A DNA stretch of 64,000 nt. Source: Paludibacter sp. GTDB lineage: Bacteria > Bacteroidota > Bacteroidia > Bacteroidales > Paludibacteraceae. The notes beneath the pieces were generated by a model. It was not told where the DNA came from. It made no database searches and was given only the letters and a program-made list of their open reading frames with translations. Positions within the stretch are counted from its first letter, which is position 1. The number at the start of each line of letters is the position of its first letter. The stretch spans positions 1-64,000 of the forward strand of contig JAAFGX010000010.1 in NCBI GenBank assembly GCA_010365115.1, written 5' to 3'. Shown piece after piece: positions 23,072-57,802 of this stretch. Position numbers and translations under genes: made by a program.

Positions 23072-23638
23072 ATGCCTTTAAAAATAGCTATTTTAGCCTC
23101 CGGCTCTGGTTCCAATGCAGAAAATATCGTTACGTATTTTTCAACTAGTGAAAAATTCGCATTTCCCATTATTATTTCAAACAAAAAAGATGCTTATGTT
23201 CATGAGCGGGCAAAAAAATTGCAAATTCCATCGGTCACTTTTTCACGTGAAGATTTTTTGAAGGGAGAACCGATTCTACATCTTTTGAAAGAACACGAAA
23301 TTGACGGCATCATTCTTGCCGGCTTTTTACTAAAAGTTCCCGAAGTGTTGATAAATGCTTATCCCGATAAAATTATCAATATTCATCCGGCTTTACTTCC
23401 CAAATATGGTGGCAAAGGAATGTACGGACATCATGTTCACGATGCTGTTGCAGCTTCCGGCGATACCGAATCGGGCATCACTATTCATTATGTAAATTCA
23501 CATTACGACGAAGGCAACATCATTTTTCAGGCAAAATGTTCTGTACTTCCTTCTTATACTGCTGATATGATTGCAGAAAAAGTGCATGCATTGGAATACG
23601 AACATTTTCCTAGAGTGATTGGGGAAATTTGGGGATGA
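23072..23638 (+). CDS. purN: Phosphoribosylglycinamide formyltransferase
   Basis: KIAILASGSGSNAENI, NIHPALLPKYGGKGMYGHHVHDAVAASGDTESGITIHYV; internal Met at 23072 fits the family start. Confidence 0.93.
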   Translation: MPLKIAILASGSGSNAENIVTYFSTSEKFAFPIIISNKKDAYVHERAKKLQIPSVTFSREDFLKGEPILHLLKEHEIDGIILAGFLLKVPEVLINAYPDKIINIHPALLPKYGGKGMYGHHVHDAVAASGDTESGITIHYVNSHYDEGNIIFQAKCSVLPSYTADMIAEKVHALEYEHFPRVIGEIWG

Positions 23639-23642
23639 TTCG

Positions 23643-23719
23643 TTTTGTGTTCAGTGTTCAGTGTTCAGTGTTCAGTGTTTTGCGTTTTGCGTTTTGTGTT
23701 CAGTGTTTTGCGTTTTGTG
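23643..23719 (+). repeat. Eleven in-phase 7-bp words drawn from three variants
   Basis: TTTTGTG, 4x TTCAGTG, 2x TTTTGCG, TTTTGTG, TTCAGTG, TTTTGCG, TTTTGTG with no gap (77 bp). Confidence 0.97.
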
Positions 23720-24457
23720 TTAGGGCAATCGAAAATTCAACCCAATTACCAAATCATCATTACTTAACATCAGTGCGCCGGATTTTTGGAGATAAATCAT
23801 GAATTTTGGTGTGGTGTAATTAAGAATTGCCGAATAGGTTAAATCCATGTACATGTGAGGAATCATGTACGAAAATCCGGCAGAAATATCCAATCCCAAA
23901 CTATTTTTCCGAAATTGATAATCAATTCCGGCGGTTTGGCTAATATTACACATGAACTTGTCGGATATTATCCCAATTGCCTGAAGATCATTGTATCTCA
24001 ATCGATAGTATTCGCCGTCTTCGTATAAAAGCGATCCTTTTATTCCGATTGGCTTCAATGTAAAATTCATAATAGGAATGGCAAGTTGAACATCTGCACT
24101 CACACCACCACCGTAATAACTTTTATAATTCGTGTTAAAGTTGTCTTCAACTCCAACTTTTCCCAAATAACCAAAAGCACCGAATGAAGTATTGAAGAAC
24201 CTATATGTTTGTGTTTGAAACAGATATAGTTGTCCAAAATAATTATCGGTCAACTGATCGTATGAGTTCAGGTATTCCGAACGATTGAATTTTCCACCTA
24301 CATAATTTGTAACCAATGTAGAATCATGATAAGCCGGTTTTGTAAATACAATCGGGTCGATGCCTGGATTTGCAATATACAAAGCGGAGCACGATGACAG
24401 AAATTGTAATGTAGCAATAAACAGAATGGAATTTACAAATGGTCGAAGTATTTTCAT
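23720..24457 (-). CDS. Hypothetical outer-membrane lipoprotein-like beta-barrel
   Basis: N-terminal hydrophobic region with LSSCSA lipobox-like motif; barrel-like strands; ends FRLP. Confidence 0.5.
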   Translation of the reverse strand: MKILRPFVNSILFIATLQFLSSCSALYIANPGIDPIVFTKPAYHDSTLVTNYVGGKFNRSEYLNSYDQLTDNYFGQLYLFQTQTYRFFNTSFGAFGYLGKVGVEDNFNTNYKSYYGGGVSADVQLAIPIMNFTLKPIGIKGSLLYEDGEYYRLRYNDLQAIGIISDKFMCNISQTAGIDYQFRKNSLGLDISAGFSYMIPHMYMDLTYSAILNYTTPKFMIYLQKSGALMLSNDDLVIGLNFRLP

Positions 24458-24553
24458 AAATAATAAAAGATTAATTTTTTTGACACAAAAATACATATTA
24501 AAGTTAATATATAACACAATAATTTTAAATTTTTAAAAATATATTTCCAGATT

Positions 24554-26935
24554 CTAAAACTTTACTGACCAATTAAATGATGGTAAAATGGGGAATACCG
24601 ATAAATAATTAAGTGTTGGCTTATAGCTGTTGTCAACATTTTTCTGAACATCAATATAATAAACATACGGATTTGACTGATTGTAAACATTATACAATCC
24701 CAACGAAATAGTTCCGTCGTATTTTTTAAATGCTTTGTATGTATGGGTAAACGAAACATCAAGCTTATGAAATGCTTTGGTACGGTAATTATTTCGTTCG
24801 GTGATAACACGCACATAATCTGAAGGATTAAAATAATAAAACCCATAGTTATAACTTTTAGCATTGGGATTCAGGTAAATACTCGTTGGAATAGTAATTG
24901 GTTTTCCCGACATATATTGCCAAGTTGCTGAAAACGTCCAAGAGTCAGAGATTTTAATTTCTGAAGTCAGAGATAGTGAATTTCGAATATCGGTAGCGGC
25001 TGCAAAGGATTTTCCATTATTCAGTTCATTAAACTGATTAACAGCTTTCATCAAAGTATAATCAGCCGTAAATTTAATATTTTTCAAAGTATAATCAGCC
25101 GAAAAATCAATTCCGTAGGCCGTTCCCTTTCCCTGTGTTATATAGTTTTTGGGATCGAGAGCCGTTTCCTGAGGCATTACAATGGTGGAATAGAGTGCGT
25201 CATAACCATCCCTGAATTCTATAATATTGTTCATAGCTTTAATCCAAGCATCGGCTTTGATAGAAAATTTGCTTTTGCTAAACGTGAAATCTTTTGCTCC
25301 ACCCAACGAAAAATTCCAAGACGTTTCTGGTTTTAAATACGAACTGCTCGGGAAAAACAATTGAAACGGAATCCCCAAACCTGGATTTGCCGCTCTGTGA
25401 ACCGGTTGCGTCATGCGACCAACGGAAGCACTAATGGAGTAATTATTTTTAAAAACACCATGGTAACCCAGCCGTGGCTCCACATTAAAATAGGTTTTAT
25501 CAGAATTCCCCACCGTGCTCAAACGGAATCCTGCCGTCAGATTTTGATTTTTCGAAGCTTGATAATCACCTCTTGCAAAAGCGACTCCTTCCAACAGCCT
25601 GGTTTGAATAGAAGGTTGAATAGCTGCTATGTTTGAATCATTTTGATTGATTTGAAAAGGCGAAAATCCATAGATTTTAAAAGAAGCTCCGCCGTTTATT
25701 TTCCACTTATCCGAAAAAGTATAATTGAATTTATCAACTAATCCTGCTGAATTAATACCCGTCATTATCTGTATAATTTCTTTCGAATTAGTGTTGGTAT
25801 AACTTGTTGCTGTACCAAAATCATAACCATACCTGTCGGCATAGGCTAACAAATGATTTTCTGATTTTTCCGAAATAGTTCTGTACCAGTTAAGTCCAAG
25901 GTTTTGTTGAAAATTTCCAAGCCATCCTTTCGTCTTTTCTGTATTGTAAGTACTGTTTACAGCTATTTTGTCTGTATTGCTAAAAAAAGTCAGTTTCAAT
26001 TTGTCTTTTTCGGAAATTTTCCACAGCAAATTGGAATTTATATCACCGAAATGAACCGAAAATCGCGTTCCTGCACTTTCGGACAAAAAGGGTGAAACCA
26101 GATTTGCCAAACTGTAATTGGAAATTCGTCCGGCAATGGAAAGTGCCAGTTTATCTTTTATCAATGGAAAACTAAGAGCCAGTTTGCTGGTAAGCATTCC
26201 AATTTCAGCTTCACCTTTAAATTTTTTCAAATTAGCATCATCTGTCAATACGTTCAGAACTGATGATATTTTTCCGCCATATTCTACTGGAAAATCAGAT
26301 TTATACAGTTTTGCACTCCGAATAATGGTGGGATTATAAACCGAAACTAACCCGAAAAAATGTTCGGTTGAAAACATGGGAATGCCATCCAACAAATACA
26401 AGTTCTGACCGTGAGTTCCGCCTCTTACCTGCATGTCGGCAGCTCCTTCGCCGCTTGAAGTTACTCCTGCAGTTAGTGCAAATGCTTTTATAATATCACG
26501 TTCCCCAATTATTGATGGTAAATTTCGGAACGTATGCGCATCCAAGCGTTCCATACTTGCGGGTTCTTCTACGGCTGGTTTTGAACTAATAACTTCAATT
26601 TCTTCGATATATTGAGATGTAAATGGCGATTGGAGTTTTATCAGCAACGTGGTGTCCGATTGCAACTTGATTTTCACTTCCTGTTTGTCAAAAGGATAAT
26701 AATCAATCACAAAAGAGTAGGTTCCAATGGGCATGTTGAATAAGAATTTCCCGTTATTGTTGGCTTCCAACACTTTATTGAAAGGCAAAACAGTTATCGG
26801 AATTTTCTTGATGGCTTTGTTGGTGCGCGCATCAATAATCTGCCCCGACACTTTGAAACGACTTTCATTTTCCTGTGCATGTAAAATCGTTATCGCAAAA
26901 CAAATTATCGCACTTAAAAGTATTTTTATTTTCAT
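24554..26935 (-). CDS. TonB-dependent receptor with N-terminal carboxypeptidase-regulatory-like domain
   Basis: KVSGQIIDARTNKAIKKIPITVL; plug domain ADMQVRGGTHGQNLYLLDGIPMFSTEHFFGLVSVYNP; long beta-barrel ending FNWSVKF. Confidence 0.9.
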   Translation of the reverse strand: MKIKILLSAIICFAITILHAQENESRFKVSGQIIDARTNKAIKKIPITVLPFNKVLEANNNGKFLFNMPIGTYSFVIDYYPFDKQEVKIKLQSDTTLLIKLQSPFTSQYIEEIEVISSKPAVEEPASMERLDAHTFRNLPSIIGERDIIKAFALTAGVTSSGEGAADMQVRGGTHGQNLYLLDGIPMFSTEHFFGLVSVYNPTIIRSAKLYKSDFPVEYGGKISSVLNVLTDDANLKKFKGEAEIGMLTSKLALSFPLIKDKLALSIAGRISNYSLANLVSPFLSESAGTRFSVHFGDINSNLLWKISEKDKLKLTFFSNTDKIAVNSTYNTEKTKGWLGNFQQNLGLNWYRTISEKSENHLLAYADRYGYDFGTATSYTNTNSKEIIQIMTGINSAGLVDKFNYTFSDKWKINGGASFKIYGFSPFQINQNDSNIAAIQPSIQTRLLEGVAFARGDYQASKNQNLTAGFRLSTVGNSDKTYFNVEPRLGYHGVFKNNYSISASVGRMTQPVHRAANPGLGIPFQLFFPSSSYLKPETSWNFSLGGAKDFTFSKSKFSIKADAWIKAMNNIIEFRDGYDALYSTIVMPQETALDPKNYITQGKGTAYGIDFSADYTLKNIKFTADYTLMKAVNQFNELNNGKSFAAATDIRNSLSLTSEIKISDSWTFSATWQYMSGKPITIPTSIYLNPNAKSYNYGFYYFNPSDYVRVITERNNYRTKAFHKLDVSFTHTYKAFKKYDGTISLGLYNVYNQSNPYVYYIDVQKNVDNSYKPTLNYLSVFPILPSFNWSVKF

Positions 26936-26941
26936 TGCTTT

Positions 26942-27793
26942 TTAATTCTGTTGTGGATAATTTATTATATTTACTCTTATACTATCCGTCACATAGCAAC
27001 TAAACAGCCCAACTCCATTTTCTATATTTGAGAATTGCGGCAAAACTCCACCAAATTTCTGAATGATTGCCAGAATGGGATTGCCTCCAAAATCTTCCAT
27101 TTCAATAATTTCACCTTCTAAAAGATACCGCTTATAATTTGGATCCAGGGTGTGTAATCTTAATGTAAATGCTGAGGAATCGAGAGGACAAGCAAAATCT
27201 AATGTTGAATATTTATTGTCAATAACTGGAATTAAACGTATATCAGAATTGGCAAATGCAGTTAAATCGTATCCGTAATATTTATCAGTTGGTAATTTGC
27301 ATTTTAGGTTTATTGGAAAACCGATGACTTTTACCCATTTATTGTTAATTGAGATACTATATGATGTATTTTCCACTTCGGGTTTATAGGTACATGTAAC
27401 TTCTACTATTTTACCCGGAACAGTCGGTAAAGTTGTTTGAGAATGAACAGTTTTATTTTTCAGTTCAATTTTCAATGAATAGGTTTTTCCTTTTTCAACC
27501 GTAAAAGTATGGGTAGCATCCACAAACACGCATGTATCTTCTTTTAGCCGAGTGAGTTCATTCCAGTTGCTATCTGGTCCGCAGATAAAAACGGTTGCTT
27601 CTGGATACGGATTTTTCTCAACAACCTCTGCACTATTATAGGTTTTGTTGAGGTAAACCTGTACAGGTGCGTTCGGTGAGATGATGGAAAATACCACCGG
27701 AATGGACGCTGTATCCCATGGAGCATCCACTGTATGGACATTTTCGCAAGATGCAATCAATATCAAAAATAGAAAATAAATTGTGTTTTTCAT
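26942..27793 (-). CDS. DUF4249-like lipoprotein
   Basis: Lipobox LIASC, VVFSIISPNAPVQVYLNKTYN ... PYPEATVFICGPD typical of DUF4249; directly upstream of and co-oriented with the TonB receptor. Confidence 0.7.
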   Translation of the reverse strand: MKNTIYFLFLILIASCENVHTVDAPWDTASIPVVFSIISPNAPVQVYLNKTYNSAEVVEKNPYPEATVFICGPDSNWNELTRLKEDTCVFVDATHTFTVEKGKTYSLKIELKNKTVHSQTTLPTVPGKIVEVTCTYKPEVENTSYSISINNKWVKVIGFPINLKCKLPTDKYYGYDLTAFANSDIRLIPVIDNKYSTLDFACPLDSSAFTLRLHTLDPNYKRYLLEGEIIEMEDFGGNPILAIIQKFGGVLPQFSNIENGVGLFSCYVTDSIRVNIINYPQQN

Positions 27794-28521
27794 TATTTAA
27801 AAGTGTAAGCAGCTTTAATTTTTAGTTCAGGAAATCCATTCGTTATACCACACCTAAATTTATCATTAAAACTATATATTGACAATCCGATTCCATAGCC
27901 AAAACTTCCTTCCAGGAATATGTTATTAGTGATGGCTTGTCGGTAACCAATGGTGGGTTTTAAAGATATATATCCTAAAGACCTATAATTACTGATTGAG
28001 TTTAAATATTGATCATATGAGCTATATAAAGAATATTCATACATTAATGGAGCAGAAACAAACCAACCAGAATTTAATTTAGCATGATTGTTTATTGCTC
28101 TTTTTTTATAATTCCAATACCAGCGTGGTTCAATACCAGCCTTTAAAGTTAATGAATATCCATTTTTATAAGCTTGATTTGGACCGTATTCTCCAGAATA
28201 TGAACTTGATATTGAATCATAAAAAACAGGATTGTATATCGACATTTTAAAACGAGAACCAGTTAGCCCAATCGAATAATCTAAAGTCCACGTCGGAGCA
28301 ATTCTTTGTTCACTAAAAAATCCAAGATAAAGCGGCAGTATATTGTTAAATCGATGGGAATTAAAAATCGCAAAAGGATTAAAGGCTGTTTGTATTTCAA
28401 CACCTTTAAAAGATTCTACTTTCAAATCTTCCGGTTTGGTGTTGTTGAAAAAGACTTCCTTTTGTGCAAAAGCTTGAGAAGTTACTGTGCAAAGTAATGT
28501 GAATAAAATAATTTTCTTCAT
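27793..28521 (-). CDS. Hypothetical outer-membrane beta-barrel protein (paralog A)
   Basis: Signal peptide then AQKEVFFNNTKPEDLKVESFKGVEIQ; ends LKIKAAYTFK; stop overlaps the downstream start (TAATG). Confidence 0.55.
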   Translation of the reverse strand: MKKIILFTLLCTVTSQAFAQKEVFFNNTKPEDLKVESFKGVEIQTAFNPFAIFNSHRFNNILPLYLGFFSEQRIAPTWTLDYSIGLTGSRFKMSIYNPVFYDSISSSYSGEYGPNQAYKNGYSLTLKAGIEPRWYWNYKKRAINNHAKLNSGWFVSAPLMYEYSLYSSYDQYLNSISNYRSLGYISLKPTIGYRQAITNNIFLEGSFGYGIGLSIYSFNDKFRCGITNGFPELKIKAAYTFK

Positions 28522-28528
28522 AAATGGT

Positions 28529-29167
28529 TTATTTAAAAGTGTAAGCTGCTTTGATCCTAAAATATGAATTTAACTGAATTTCAGGTAAATGAAATAATGA
28601 AATTCCTAATCCAGCAGAAGTTTCCATAAAAAAGTGGTTCGAAAATGCAAATCGATAACCGATAATAGGTGATAGGAATAAATTCAATTTTAATTTTGTG
28701 GAATCGGCAAAAAGCGTATTGGTGTTTAATTCCAATGGTAATCCTAAAAAGCAACCGGTATTCAGTTTCACATTTCTTCCTTTTTCGTAGCGGTTTTTAA
28801 ACGTAAAGTACCAGCGTGGTTCAGCAAAAGCCGTCAAACCCATACCAAATCCATATTCGTGGATGGGTCTTGAAAAACTGTTCGAATTTGAATATCCTGA
28901 ATATAGAATAGATTTGATATATTTTCCGAGATAAATGTTCCCACCCAAAATCAGACTGGTTGAGTTTGTCATTCGTTTCTCGTTGAAATATCCAACATCA
29001 AATGAAACGCCAAAGCCACTATGGAACGCAGCAGGTCCAATAAATATGCCTTGCATACTTGAAATAGAAACTGAATCTTTATCGATAGTGGTAAAAAACA
29101 CTTCTTTTTGAGCACTTAAGGAGAAGAAAGAGAGAAGCAATAGGGAACTAATCAGCATCTTTTTCAT
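28529..29167 (-). CDS. Hypothetical outer-membrane beta-barrel protein (paralog B)
   Basis: Signal peptide then AQKEVFFTTIDKDSVSISSMQGIFIG; ends FRIKAAYTFK. Confidence 0.55.
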   Translation of the reverse strand: MKKMLISSLLLLSFFSLSAQKEVFFTTIDKDSVSISSMQGIFIGPAAFHSGFGVSFDVGYFNEKRMTNSTSLILGGNIYLGKYIKSILYSGYSNSNSFSRPIHEYGFGMGLTAFAEPRWYFTFKNRYEKGRNVKLNTGCFLGLPLELNTNTLFADSTKLKLNLFLSPIIGYRFAFSNHFFMETSAGLGISLFHLPEIQLNSYFRIKAAYTFK

Positions 29168-29537
29168 AAACATATCGGGTTATATTTAATATTGTGAACA
29201 AAATTAGCGGTTATTTTTAAAACTACATTCATTGTTAATTAACTTTATATTTAATAATTAACTTTTTTGAAATTTATTTATTAATTAAAAATTAGCTAGC
29301 TGCTTAACACGTTTTTTAAGAAAATTAAAATTAAAACGGAGATTTTGTTAACTTATTGTCTGGACATTTTATTAAATTATAGTTTATAATTCTTTCCAAT
29401 TAGTTGAATCAAAAAAAAATTACTTATTAAAATTCGTATAATTAGCTCGGCTGACCGTTGGTTCGTCTTTTGTTTTATGAGAGATGGAATTTTAACGATC
29501 AATTTTTTTATCATTTTATTCTCCTGTATTTTTATCG

Positions 29538-29545
29538 TATCTTTG
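29538..29545 (+). promoter_or_regulatory. -7 box TATCTTTG upstream of ychF
   Basis: CGTATCTTTGCACC matches TAnnTTTG; -33 element is weak. Confidence 0.5.
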
Positions 29546-29622
29546 CACCCGCAAAAGTTGACTGTTTCCATAATCAACTTTTTGAACTTTCAAACTTTAC
29601 AAACTTTCAAACTAACTAAAAT

Positions 29623-30723
29623 ATGGCTCTTCAATGTGGTATCGTTGGTTTACCCAATGTTGGTAAATCTACTTTATTCAACTGTCTTTCAAATGCTAAA
29701 GCCCAGGCTGCTAACTTCCCTTTTTGTACAATAGAACCAAATGTTGGTGTTATTACCGTTCCCGACGAACGCCTCAATAAATTATCGGAACTAGTTCACC
29801 CACAACGTATTGTGCCTACAACTGTAGAAATTGTGGATATTGCCGGATTGGTAAAAGGGGCAAGCAAAGGCGAAGGTTTGGGAAATAAATTTTTGGCGAA
29901 CATACGTGAAACAGATGCTATTTTGCACGTGTTGCGTTGTTTTGATAACGAAAATATTGTTCACGTTGATGGCAGCATTAATCCGGTTCGCGATAAAGAA
30001 ATTATTGATACCGAATTGCAATTGAAAGATCTTGAAACGGTTGAAAGTCGCATTAGCAAAGTGCAAAAACAAGCGCAAACCGGTGGTGACAAGCAAGCCA
30101 AAGCCACCTACGATATTTACATGCAATACAAAGAGGCTTTGATGCAAGGAAAATCGGCACGTACTGTAAAACTGGATCCGTTGGACAAAAAGCTAGTAAA
30201 AGATTTATATTTACTAACCGACAAGCCGGTGATGTATGTTTGCAATGTGGATGAAGCCTCGGCTATAAACGGAAATGCCTACGTGGAAGCTTTGCGCGAA
30301 TCGGTAAAAGAAGAAAATGCGGAAATTCTGATTGTGGCAGCAGCTACTGAAGCCGATATTGCGGAATTGGAAACCTATGACGAACGCCAAATGTTTCTGG
30401 AAGAAGTGGGTCTTAAAGAATCAGGTGTGGCGCGTTTAATTCGTGCGGCTTATCACTTGTTAGATTTGCAAACTTATTTCACGGCAGGAGTTCAGGAAGT
30501 ACGTGCATGGACTTTTGAACGTGGTTGGAAAGCACCGCAATGTGCCGGTGTGATTCATACCGATTTCGAAAAAGGATTTATCCGTGCTGAGGTTATTAAA
30601 TATGCTGATTTTACTACACTGGGTTCGGAAGCAGCGTGTAAAGAAGCCGGAAAAATGAACGTTGAAGGCAAGGAATATGTGGTTACCGATGGTGATATTA
30701 TGCACTTTAGGTTTAACGTGTAA
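29623..30723 (+). CDS. ychF: Redox-regulated ATPase / OBG-family GTPase YchF
   Basis: [70 protein letters not shown]. Confidence 0.97.
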
Positions 30724-35833: not shown

Positions 35834-35862
35834 TTGAGTTGAAAAATTTTTTAGTGTGTAGA

Positions 35863-35913
35863 GTTTATACAGTTTTAAAGTTTATACAGTTTTAAAGTTT
35901 ATAAAGTTTTAAA
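35863..35913 (+). repeat. Tandem repeat, 3 x 17 bp
   Basis: GTTTATACAGTTTTAAA x2 then GTTTATAAAGTTTTAAA. Confidence 0.97.
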
Positions 35914-35924
35914 TTTAGGACGTT

Positions 35925-36677
35925 TTACTGCTTGACAGTAATAGTATTACGCCCGAAACTTCGGTACGAATCATGTTCAATTTCAATATCTGGTTCAATA
36001 AATTGCTCTTTGTTTTTCAATAAAAACTGAATGTATTTAATACTCAAACCTCGACCGAGCCACTGTTGTTCGTAATAGGTTTTAATATTCAGAATGGAAT
36101 CCTGCAAATCGGATTCGTACAAGTTATCGGTTGAGAAAACAACAGGAAGTTGATTAATGTTCACCATGGCACAGGTATATGTAAACATAAAATTGCTGTC
36201 GGTTTTCAAATGTATTTTGCCGTTGGATTTCAAAAACTGTTGGTATGATTTCATGAAATTAGTAGCAGTCAGTCGCTTGGTCACTTTCTTCATTTGCGGA
36301 TCGGGGAACGTCAACCATATTTCACTCACCTCGTTTTCTGCAAAAAAATGATGAATCATTTCAATGTCGGTACGCAGAAAAGCCACATTGGTCATGCCTT
36401 TTTCAAACGAGTCTTTTGCTCCTGTCCACAAACGAGCCCCTTTAATATCGACACCAATAAAGTTTTTTTCGGGATAAAGATGTCCTAATCCAACGGTATA
36501 TTCGCCTTTTCCGCAACCTAATTCCAACACAATGGGATGATCATTTTTAAAAAACAATTCATTCCATTTTCCTTTCATTTCGAACGATTTTCCTTCACGT
36601 AATGAATGTGATGAAACCTGAAACACATGCGAAAACTCCTCCATATCGGCAAATTTTGCCAATTTATTTTTACCCAC
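35925..36677 (-). CDS. trmB: tRNA (guanine-N7-)-methyltransferase
   Basis: [53 protein letters not shown]. Confidence 0.92.
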
Positions 36678-36760: not shown

Positions 36761-36876
36761 TAATTTAACTCACATCAAACTTCTAAGAAACAAACTACGA
36801 ATTTCACGAATTTGCGATTATAAAAATTATTTGTTTCTTTAATTTTCAGACTAGTTTGCCGGTCTTACATGATTTA

Positions 36877-36918
36877 AACTATCTACTATAAACTACCTAC
36901 TAAATACTACCTACTACT
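36877..36918 (-). repeat. Six 7-bp words overlapping the gldH 3' end
   Basis: Plus strand: AACTATC TACTATA AACTACC TACTAAA TACTACC TACTACT. Confidence 0.9.
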
Positions 36919-37392
36919 ACCCACTTTCTCCACCCGCATTCCAATATCATTAATCCCCATCAACACTGTATCGCGCATGCCGTGTCCAATTTTATATTGA
37001 TATTTTCCCTTTGTTGGAAACTTTACATTTTGTTGGTATAAAACAGGCATTTCGAGTACAGAACCAATTCCGGAACCAAGCCATTTTCCACGTTGATCAG
37101 CCAGATAAAGTTCAATCGAATCATTTAAAATAACGCTGTCGGGTGACATTTTTTGTAGAAATAACCACAAATTCTGATAAGGGTATTCTCCTCTGTTCCT
37201 AACATTTACGTATACATTATACGTAGAATTTTCATCCGATATTGGAATGTCGAAAACGCACAAACTGTCCTTATTCCAACCTTCTGGAGCAATGGTATTG
37301 TATTGAAAAAAAGCATCATTACTGGTACAGGCAATCAACAATAATGAACTCAGGATTACTCCGTTTTTAAATTTATTCTTTAGGTTCTTCAC
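36907..37392 (-). CDS. gldH: Gliding motility lipoprotein GldH-like
   Basis: Lipobox LLIACTSND; VYVNVRNRGEYPYQNLWLFLQKMSPD ... GIGSVLEMPVLYQQNVKFPTKGKYQYKIGHGMRDTVLMGINDIGMRVEK; next to the PSP1 gene. Confidence 0.8.
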   Translation of the reverse strand: MKNLKNKFKNGVILSSLLLIACTSNDAFFQYNTIAPEGWNKDSLCVFDIPISDENSTYNVYVNVRNRGEYPYQNLWLFLQKMSPDSVILNDSIELYLADQRGKWLGSGIGSVLEMPVLYQQNVKFPTKGKYQYKIGHGMRDTVLMGINDIGMRVEKVGSSR

Positions 37393-38620: not shown

Positions 38621-38774
38621 AGTTTGTAAAGTTTATAAAGTTGAAAGTTTGTAAAGTTGTAGGTCTGTAAAGTTGTAGGTCTGTAAAGTTGTAGGTTTGT
38701 AAAGTTGAATTGACTTTATAAACCTTATGAACTTTATGAACTTTATGAACTTTATGAACTTTATAAACTTTTTA
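38621..38774. repeat. Inverted-polarity word array (GT-words then AAC-words on + strand)
   Basis: GTTTGTAAA GTTTATAAA GTTGAAA GTTTGTAAA (GTTGTAG GTCTGTAAA)x2 GTTGTAG GTTTGTAAA, then 7 x 9 bp GACTTTATA AACCTTATG 3xAACTTTATG AACTTTATA AACTTTTTA. Confidence 0.93.
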
Positions 38775-39932: not shown

Positions 39933-39987
39933 GCTGAAAATTTACACTTTTTGTCCATTTTTGGATAAAGTGCAAATATACAAAAAA

Positions 39988-40037
39988 GTTCGTTGAGTTT
40001 GTAAAGTTTGAAAGTTATAAAGTTTGAAAGCTTGTCG
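39988..40037 (+). repeat. GT-word array (8-9 bp words) upstream of holB
   Basis: GTTCGTTGA GTTTGTAAA GTTTGAAA GTTATAAA GTTTGAAA GCTTGTCG. Confidence 0.75.
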
Positions 40038-55476: not shown

Positions 55477-56859
55477 ATGTCAAATCAAAACACAATTAAA
55501 CAAGCCTTTACACTTTCAGGAAAAGGTTTGCACTCCGGTTTAGAAATTAATCTTACGTTCCTACCGGCTCCCGAGAATCATGGCATCAAAATCAAACGTG
55601 TTGATTTAGCCGAACAACCTGAAATGGATGCTGTAGCCGAATACGTTGCAGAAACTACCCGTGGTACCGTTCTGAAAAAAGGTGAAATGCAAGTAAGCAC
55701 AGTAGAACACGCCCTGTCGGCGTTGTATGCATTAGGCATTGACAATTGTATGCTCGAGGTGGATGCACCGGAGTTTCCAATATTGGATGGCAGTGCAAAA
55801 TACTATGTTGAGCAGATTCAACTGGCTGGCATTGAAGAGCAAAAAGCTGAAAAAGACTATTATATTGTACGAAAGAAAATAGAATACTGCATTCCTGAAA
55901 CTGGTGCGAAAATTACTATTTTACCCGATGATATTTTCAGCGTGGATGTACATATCGGGTTTGATTCACCAATTTTAAATAATCAATTTGCAAGCTTATC
56001 GTCGTTGGATAATTACACAACTGAAATTGCTTCCGCACGTACTTTCGTTTTTGTACACGAAATTGAATACTTGGCAAAATTGAATCTGATAAAAGGAGGT
56101 GATTTAAAAAATGCCATCGTTATTTATGATAAACCAATATCACAAACGGACTATGATAAATTAGCTGACTTGATGGATCAGCCGCATCAGGATGCTACAA
56201 GATTGGGTTATCTGAATGGCGGCGTAAAATTTCCAAACGAACCTGCACGACACAAATTGCTCGATGTTATTGGCGATCTTTCTTTGATTGGAAAACCGAT
56301 AAAAGGGAAAGTGATTGCAACCTTTCCAGGACATAAAATAAACACTGATATCGCCAAACAAATTCGCAAGGAATTGAAGAAACAGGAAGTTCAAGCTCCT
56401 GTTTACGACGATACCATTCCGCCAGTTTTGGATGTAGCTGCTATTCGTAAGTTATTACCGCATCGCTGGCCATTTCTAATGGTTGACAAAATCATTCAGA
56501 TGCGTGAAAAAGTAATTGTCGGAGTAAAAAACGTAACGGTAAACGAAACATTTTTCATGGGACATTTTCCCGACGAGCCTGTAATGCCAGGCGTTCTACT
56601 TGTTGAAGCTATGGCGCAAACAGGTGGATTATTGGTGTTAAACTCAGTAGATGAACCCGAGCGTTATTCAACCTATTTTTTAAAAATAGACAATGTAAAA
56701 TTCCGTCAGAAAGTGGTTCCCGGCGATACGGTGATATTCCATTTGGAAATGACTGAACCCATGCGTCGTGGATGTGCCATAATGAAAGGAACTGCATTTG
56801 TAGGTGGAAAAATAGTAACAGAAGCCGAATTTATGGCTCAAATAGTAAAGAATAAATAG
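55477..56859 (+). CDS. lpxC/fabZ: Bifunctional UDP-3-O-acyl-GlcNAc deacetylase / 3-hydroxyacyl-ACP dehydratase
   Basis: LpxC half: FTLSGKGLHSG, VSTVEHALSALYALGIDNC; FabZ half: LPHRWPFLMVDKI, NETFFMGHFPDEPVMPGVLLVEAMAQTGG; fusion typical of Bacteroidetes. Confidence 0.96.
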   Translation: MSNQNTIKQAFTLSGKGLHSGLEINLTFLPAPENHGIKIKRVDLAEQPEMDAVAEYVAETTRGTVLKKGEMQVSTVEHALSALYALGIDNCMLEVDAPEFPILDGSAKYYVEQIQLAGIEEQKAEKDYYIVRKKIEYCIPETGAKITILPDDIFSVDVHIGFDSPILNNQFASLSSLDNYTTEIASARTFVFVHEIEYLAKLNLIKGGDLKNAIVIYDKPISQTDYDKLADLMDQPHQDATRLGYLNGGVKFPNEPARHKLLDVIGDLSLIGKPIKGKVIATFPGHKINTDIAKQIRKELKKQEVQAPVYDDTIPPVLDVAAIRKLLPHRWPFLMVDKIIQMREKVIVGVKNVTVNETFFMGHFPDEPVMPGVLLVEAMAQTGGLLVLNSVDEPERYSTYFLKIDNVKFRQKVVPGDTVIFHLEMTEPMRRGCAIMKGTAFVGGKIVTEAEFMAQIVKNK

Positions 56860-57008
56860 TTGGTAGTTTATAGTTGGTAGTAGGTAGTATGTAGTTGGTA
56901 ATGCTAATAGTTAATGCGCATAACGCATAACACAGAATGCATAACACTAAACACCAAACACTAAACACTAAACGCGAAACGCGAAAAACAGAAAACAGAA
57001 CACAGAAC
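56857..57008. repeat. Inverted-polarity 7-bp word array
   Basis: 6 words 56858-56899 (AGTTGGT AGTTTAT AGTTGGT AGTAGGT AGTATGT AGTTGGT); hinge GTTAATGC|GCATAAC; 13 words 56918-57008 (GCATAAC x2 ACAGAAT GCATAAC ACTAAAC ACCAAAC ACTAAAC x2 GCGAAAC GCGAAAA ACAGAAA ACAGAAC x2). Confidence 0.97.
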
Positions 57009-57022
57009 ATTTAATAATTATT

Positions 57023-57802
57023 ATGAAACAACCTTTAGCTTATATCCATCCCGATGCGAAGATTGCACCTACAGTTGTAATCGAGCCTTTTGTAACCATT
57101 GATAAAAATGTGGTTATTGGCGATGGATCTCAAATAGGATCGAACGTTACCATTTTAGAAGGTGTGCGAATTGGAAAAAATTGCAAAATATTCCCCGGCG
57201 CTGTCATTGGAGCTATTCCACAGGATTTGAAATTTCAAGGCGAAGATTCGTTAGTGATTATTGGAGATAACACCACCATCCGTGAATATGTTACTATAAA
57301 CAGAGGTACTTCAGCAAAAGGAAAAACAGTTGTGGGCAACAATTGTTTACTAATGGCGTATTGCCATGTTGCACATGATTGTGTTGTTGGAAACAATGTA
57401 ATCATGTCAAATGCTACACAACTAGCAGGCGAAGTGGTTATTGATGATTTTGCCATTTTGAGTGCAGGAATTTTGGTGCATCAATTTACACATATTGGTT
57501 CGCATGTGATGATTCAGGGTGGATCAAAAATCAACAAAGATGTTCCACCGTTTATTACTGCAGGTCGCGATCCAATTTCATATGCCGGAATCAACTCTAT
57601 CGGATTGCGTCGCAGAGGTTATACTAACGAACAAATACGTGACATACAAGACGTGTATCGTTATCTTTACCAATCGGGAATGAATACGACTCATGCCATC
57701 GAAAGAATTCAAGCTGAATTGCCAGCCACCAAAGAGCGTGACGAGATTTTACTTTTTATTAAAAACTCACCACGCGGAATTATTAAAGGATATTTTGAGT
57801 AG
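57023..57802 (+). CDS. lpxA: UDP-N-acetylglucosamine O-acyltransferase
   Basis: Left-handed beta-helix hexapeptides; GAIPQDLKFQGEDSLVIIGDNTTIREYVTINRGT; LMAYCHVAHDCVVGNNVIMSN; GINSIGLRRRGYT. Confidence 0.96.
   Translation: MKQPLAYIHPDAKIAPTVVIEPFVTIDKNVVIGDGSQIGSNVTILEGVRIGKNCKIFPGAVIGAIPQDLKFQGEDSLVIIGDNTTIREYVTINRGTSAKGKTVVGNNCLLMAYCHVAHDCVVGNNVIMSNATQLAGEVVIDDFAILSAGILVHQFTHIGSHVMIQGGSKINKDVPPFITAGRDPISYAGINSIGLRRRGYTNEQIRDIQDVYRYLYQSGMNTTHAIERIQAELPATKERDEILLFIKNSPRGIIKGYFE

Follow-up and report, generated by a model that had tools for sequence, protein, structure and literature searches.

Heptanucleotide repeats are known as STRR in cyanobacteria. Dispersed heptanucleotide SSRs of prokaryotes were surveyed by Mrazek and colleagues (cited in PMC4679880 and PMC4692102); heptanucleotides are reported to form the commonest longer-unit SSR category in most genomes rich in long SSRs, with slippage by a 7-nt step as the proposed cause. 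TAACTGA heptamer repeats occur in Beggiatoaceae, Cyanobacteria and some Bacteroidetes and are missing from the matching gaps of relatives (MacGregor 2015, PMC4679880); that paper also notes further heptamer repeats, and larger assemblages of heptamers, in Bacteroidetes, and Paludibacter propionicigenes is among the organisms it covers. The GGGNATC and GGGGA(C/T)T heptads of Xanthomonas and Nostoc are heterogeneous and comprise 2 to 26 units, and in cyanobacteria of the genus Calothrix three different tandem heptanucleotides are found in one genome (PMC4692102). Here, we describe a heptad array relevant to the question of why so many bacterial repeats favour a unit of seven bases. It lies in a stretch of 64,000 nucleotides (the window) from the MAG of an uncultured Paludibacter-type bacterium (4.79 Mb, 7.2% contamination), within the following arrangement:

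23072..23638, plus strand: purN, phosphoribosylglycinamide formyltransferase (Pfam Formyl_trans_N, E=3e-41; named from the first-pass annotation and the family match)
23643..23719, plus strand: array of eleven heptamers, family F1, with the grammar GTT[TC]NG[TC] in GTT phase; order CAAAABBCABC
23720..24457, minus strand: convergent gene, an ORF call with no Pfam match, whose stop codon touches the array

The 81-bp gap between the two stop codons is made up of 4 nt (TTCG) and the 77-bp array. The purN stop codon TGA occupies 23636-23638, 4 nt before the array, and the 3' edge of the array touches the TTA at 23720-23722, with which the minus-strand gene ends. Positions 23643-23719 tile without remainder as TTTTGTG, TTCAGTG four times, TTTTGCG twice, TTTTGTG, TTCAGTG, TTTTGCG and TTTTGTG; with C = TTTTGTG, A = TTCAGTG and B = TTTTGCG, the order is C A A A A B B C A B C. 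The first-pass annotation had given eleven 7-mers from three words in this order and at these coordinates, with a precise end at the TTA, all of which is exact, and the name purN is supported by the Formyl_trans_N match. Its view that this is not a simple tandem repeat holds in that the words form a mosaic, but the array is also partly hierarchical, TRF reporting a 28-bp unit (x1.9, 96%) for a portion of it. The lag-7 identity is 58/70, and the word order taken alone does not differ significantly from random (p=0.56). The array folds no more stably than shuffled sequence, with no stable hairpin, and no terminator or promoter match falls within it. The closest named matches of the purN product are from Paludibacter and Paludibacteraceae MAGs. 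The convergent gene, with a predicted start at 24457, probably encodes a lipoprotein, judging by its N-terminus; of 35 relatives sampled, 5 have a homolog. The region 23720-29600, between purN and ychF, carries mostly minus-strand genes, including those for a TonB-dependent receptor and a DUF4249 protein; ychF is at 29623-30720 here and comes next after purN in many congeners.

The array fits the heptanucleotide SSR class by its 7-bp tandem units, by the many loci at which period 7 is in excess and by their mostly intergenic position; this class is likewise over-represented relative to other unit lengths and uneven between genomes. Nevertheless, there are distinguishable differences. The first is that a known heptanucleotide SSR has one uniform unit, whereas two to five words are mixed per array here. 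The second concerns the TAACTGA repeats, which are also intergenic heptads with a word that is common to distant loci and species and that relatives lack in their orthologous gap; the words here are TTTTGTG, TTCAGTG and TTTTGCG, and related heptamers, rarely repeated in that paper's main genome, are mixed several to an array here. The GGGNATC and GGGGA(C/T)T heptads resemble the present arrays in having fixed and variable positions, in being intergenic and in that their prominent loci are not common to related species. However, no unit of the purN-gap array contains GGG, and owing to this lack of G-tracts a G-quadruplex rationale does not apply to it. The Calothrix STRR, with three tandem heptanucleotides per genome, differ in sequence and phylum. 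For a named family with the F1 type of grammar, the literature search gave heptamer-repeat papers only (PMC4679880, PMC4692102). The grammar is nevertheless not unique, as this genome and genus contain many such arrays and dispersed heptamer repeats, heterogeneous ones and multi-heptamer assemblages of Bacteroidetes among them, are published. We assign the purN-gap array to the dispersed heptanucleotide repeats, an already described class; its less ordinary features are the mosaic vocabulary and the polarity of that vocabulary.

The first-pass annotation had proposed to scan this genome and its relatives for intergenic runs of 7-bp periodicity, and many period-7 runs were found. In an 867-kb sample of the genome, consisting mostly of contigs picked regardless of arrays and including the window, a position-agnostic scan that required 42 bp with a lag-7 identity of 65% or more found 29 period-7 runs, compared with 0-1 in each of twelve Markov-shuffled samples (order 1, 3 and 5), so the shuffled null that might have produced as many runs does not equal the genome. 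Period 9 gave 18 runs and period 8 gave six, while each of the other short periods up to 13 gave 0-3. The period-7 class, the array at purN included, is real and far past chance. Most runs lie outside predicted genes, and just 2 of 21 F1 runs fall inside a predicted ORF. Two further period-7 regions occur in the window (36876-36926 and 56837-57030). Some features of the data point towards an assembly or binning artefact: the MAG carries 7.2% contamination and a second PurN on contig C58, and contigs C11 and C40 end inside arrays. Yet the array, at 77 bp and between unique flanks, would fit within a typical read, and a significant period-7 signal is present in the single-contig genome G016, both past purN and in 6.9% of 3' gaps, which makes an artefact highly improbable. 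The second PurN (G000:C58:11593-12141; 62% identity) agrees with another organism contaminating the assembly, as reported; given this and the 7.2% figure, sequence of two organisms may be mixed in the genome-wide sample. The sequences from contigs C66, C93 and C196 each bear both F1 and F3 arrays.

The mosaic word order records the copying steps by which such arrays arise. Within arrays, words follow one another almost at random once composition is taken into account; neighbouring F1 words are identical with a frequency of 0.335, compared with 0.386 after shuffling, a ratio of 0.87. Simulated duplication and deletion of one unit at a time gave a lag-1 word-identity ratio of 1.5-2.5, far from this value, and one-unit slippage was rejected on this ground; simulated blocks with a mean of some four units or more gave 0.55-1.1, which spans the observed ratio. 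This match in neighbour identity speaks for slipped mispairing or unequal exchange of several units at once, among units that differ by point mutations. Long repeated word strings, looked for as a trace of block duplication, were not significant overall (Fisher p=0.13). The statement that unit length is constant while words are shuffled is borne out, with one-unit slippage insufficient by simulation, and of the explanations the first-pass annotation listed, slippage plus conversion or exchange fits best. We consider it roughly 60% probable that the array is a fast-turnover intergenic heptad minisatellite, a local member of the genome-wide period-7 class, whose units differ by point mutations and are rearranged through slipped or unequal exchange of several units at once. 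It would begin with the expansion of a short tandem seed of 7 bp, and occasional point mutations would yield variant heptads, here TTTTGTG, TTTTGCG and TTCAGTG. Slippage or unequal exchange, with the copies in register, would then duplicate and delete blocks of several units; such events would hold the 7-bp phase, mix the words and overwrite most of a short gap. Spread would be halted by the flanking reading frames, since a 7-bp step destroys the frame. Loops of at least 7 nt are poorly seen by MutS-dependent repair, so the process is possible in mismatch-repair-proficient cells; MutS is present in 8 of 8 genomes tested, array-rich and array-poor alike. In this account the initial seed, the enzymes at work and the neutrality of the array are inferences; the array is probably without function at purN.

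Templated synthesis, another of the explanations listed, would have a telomerase-like or other reverse transcriptase add 7-nt repeats with stereotyped misincorporation. Variant telomere repeats have a fixed length, stereotyped variable positions and a near-random order, and the arrays share these traits. However, across eight genomes the presence of RVT_1 genes does not follow array load, in that no reverse-transcriptase gene was found in array-bearing G009 and G020 and one is present in array-poor G001; different vocabularies would moreover need different templates. Positive evidence for templated synthesis did not emerge, and we regard it as barely credible. Nor is a preference for helical phase supported, as F1 identities at lags 7, 14, 21 and 28 are flat (0.86-0.885), lag 21 is not above 14 or 28, and period 9 is the second commonest period.

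The arrays draw on a few vocabularies, namely F1 (GTT[TC]NG[TC]), F2 (TAGTNNN), F3 (NYTCTTG) and AT-rich words, with the label F5 given to arrays of 8-9-bp units of the GTTTGAAAG and AGTTTGTAA types. Besides the purN-gap array, the window holds:

36875..36919, minus strand: F2 array with TAGTAGG, TAGTATT, TAGTTTA and TAGTAGA
56857..56900, plus strand: F2 array with TAGTTGG, TAGTTTA, TAGTAGG and TAGTATG
56917..57015, minus strand: second F1 array of the window, with words such as GTTTAGT, GTTTCGC and GTTCTGT

The second F1 array lies directly upstream of a plus-strand gene start at about 57024. Arrays of 8-9-bp units, in which words are mixed much as in the heptads, were also observed in the window at 35862-35927, 38621-38771 and 39985-40035 (AGTTTATAA, AGTTTGTAA and ACTTTATGA). 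F1 occurs at 12 or more separate sites in the genome of the window, and it is over-represented in the array lists because loci L051-L065 were fetched for F1-like sequence. Among 29 arrays of this genome not chosen for being arrays, 11 are F3, compared with 0.6% expected for random heptamers, and one is F1; in an unselected sample of the congener G005, 5 of 21 arrays are F1 (1.2% expected for random heptamers). Alternative bases at F1 positions 1-7 number 11, 2, 1, 16, 25, 13 and 25, counts that may be somewhat biased as fixed positions were used once per array in family assignment; positions 5 and 7 vary most and positions 2-3 are almost fixed. In F3, positions 1-2 are variable and TCT is nearly invariant.

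Adjoining families follow a preferred order. In the genome of the window and G005, F5 precedes F1 in 7 of 8 cases and F1 precedes F3 in 3 of 3, always on the same strand; the single adjoining pair in G040 has the opposite orientation. The succession of GTTTGAAAG type, F1 and F3 on one strand was seen at L061:13045-13449, L053:6547-6855 and L224:8107-8251. F3 arrays of this genome often hold a dispersed hairpin-bearing segment, CTCCCGCTTGGGCGGGATGTCGAGTACTCCATTG, sometimes twice and with heptads flanking it (L079:4890-5035, L066:18930-19030, L054:5700-5760, L083, L087 and L096). Integron attC cassettes were considered as the origin of F3 and rejected, as no integrase match exceeded the curated cut-off and long genes surround the F3 arrays.

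Pure neutral slippage fails to predict the same vocabularies at unrelated loci and in other species, variation that avoids certain positions, and the preferred order and strand of adjoining families. Because vocabularies are shared, positions restricted and order polar, copying between arrays or a sequence-preferring factor is suggested in addition. One such account is a dispersed composite element, an ordered F5-F1-F3 unit that recombination or a mobile process would copy from existing arrays to new positions between genes, with local shuffling afterwards. It would explain vocabularies common to many loci and species, the order and orientation preferred in two species and the common segment CTCCCGCTTGGGCGGGATGTCGAGTACTCCATTG often found within F3 arrays. 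We nevertheless consider it unlikely: F1 flanks share little, the few matches inspected falling in neighbouring short-period repeats, no terminal inverted repeats or target duplications were recognised, and no larger element surrounds the purN-gap array. Still more doubtful is a repeat system, dispersed in Bacteroidales of this group, in which the grammar (the 7-bp step, a fixed anchor such as GTT or TCT, the free positions and the order F5, F1, F3) is conserved rather than sequence or locus, and which a factor acting in trans produces or maintains by copying or selecting heptads; if the shared vocabulary does need such a factor, genomes would here be shaped by a process of a new kind.

Under the minisatellite reading, an array is expected to turn over between lineages, and the purN gap does so. 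The nearest relative, G018, keeps purN and the same convergent gene with a gap of 69 bp and no array, compared with 81 bp, 77 of them array, here, which indicates lineage-specific turnover. Among 33 purN loci, four of which have a nearly identical gap, nine (that of the window included) show a lag-7 signal within 107 nt past purN at p<=0.01 by mononucleotide shuffles. The words past purN are different ones elsewhere, namely GATTTTC in G015, GTTTCGG and GTTTTGA in G014, GTNRCAA in G016 and GTTTGAAAG plus GTTCCGT in G005; thus, the period recurs at this gap and the word changes. The first-pass annotation had named random sequence in the gap of related strains as counter-evidence, and the gap of G018 is indeed non-repetitive, while about a quarter to a third of the other congeners have period-7 runs there. 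By the same test, a lag-7 signal is present in 7.7% of 3' gaps in the genome of the window, 13.7% in G005, 6.9% in G016 and 1.7% in G001, and a period-6 signal in 0-1.9%. The rate past purN is in modest excess over the 7-14% of general 3' gaps in array-bearing genomes.

This turnover also bears on a functional role, in which the array would supply repeated binding sites or an unstructured RNA leader or trailer (related to a protein, Rho or the ribosome) under selection for heptad spacing and fixed positions. The restriction of variation by position and the almost unstructured minus-strand RNA of the purN-gap array (-0.7 kcal/mol) agree with such a role, and many F1 arrays end near a start codon and are oriented so that the A/C-rich strand is the sense strand (11 vs 4, tandem contexts). 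However, that orientation bias is weak (about p=0.12, two-sided binomial) and cannot apply in a convergent 3'-3' gap such as that at purN; furthermore, the array is not conserved in G018, and congeners have different words in the same gap. A functional role here is therefore improbable.

The vocabularies of this genome reappear in relatives at other loci: F3 in 30 of 48 congeners and F1 triplets in 15 of 60 relatives. Across the phylum, just 14 of 399 genomes contain F1 triplets, so F1 is not a general Bacteroidota feature. Period-7 load also varies, with 21 runs in 328 kb of G005, four in 400 kb of G016 and none in 194 kb of G001, and the genus thus offers array-rich and array-poor species for comparison. 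Period-11 runs are a further difference between species, with 13 in the 328 kb of G005 (L213-L232) and one in the 867 kb from the genome of the window.
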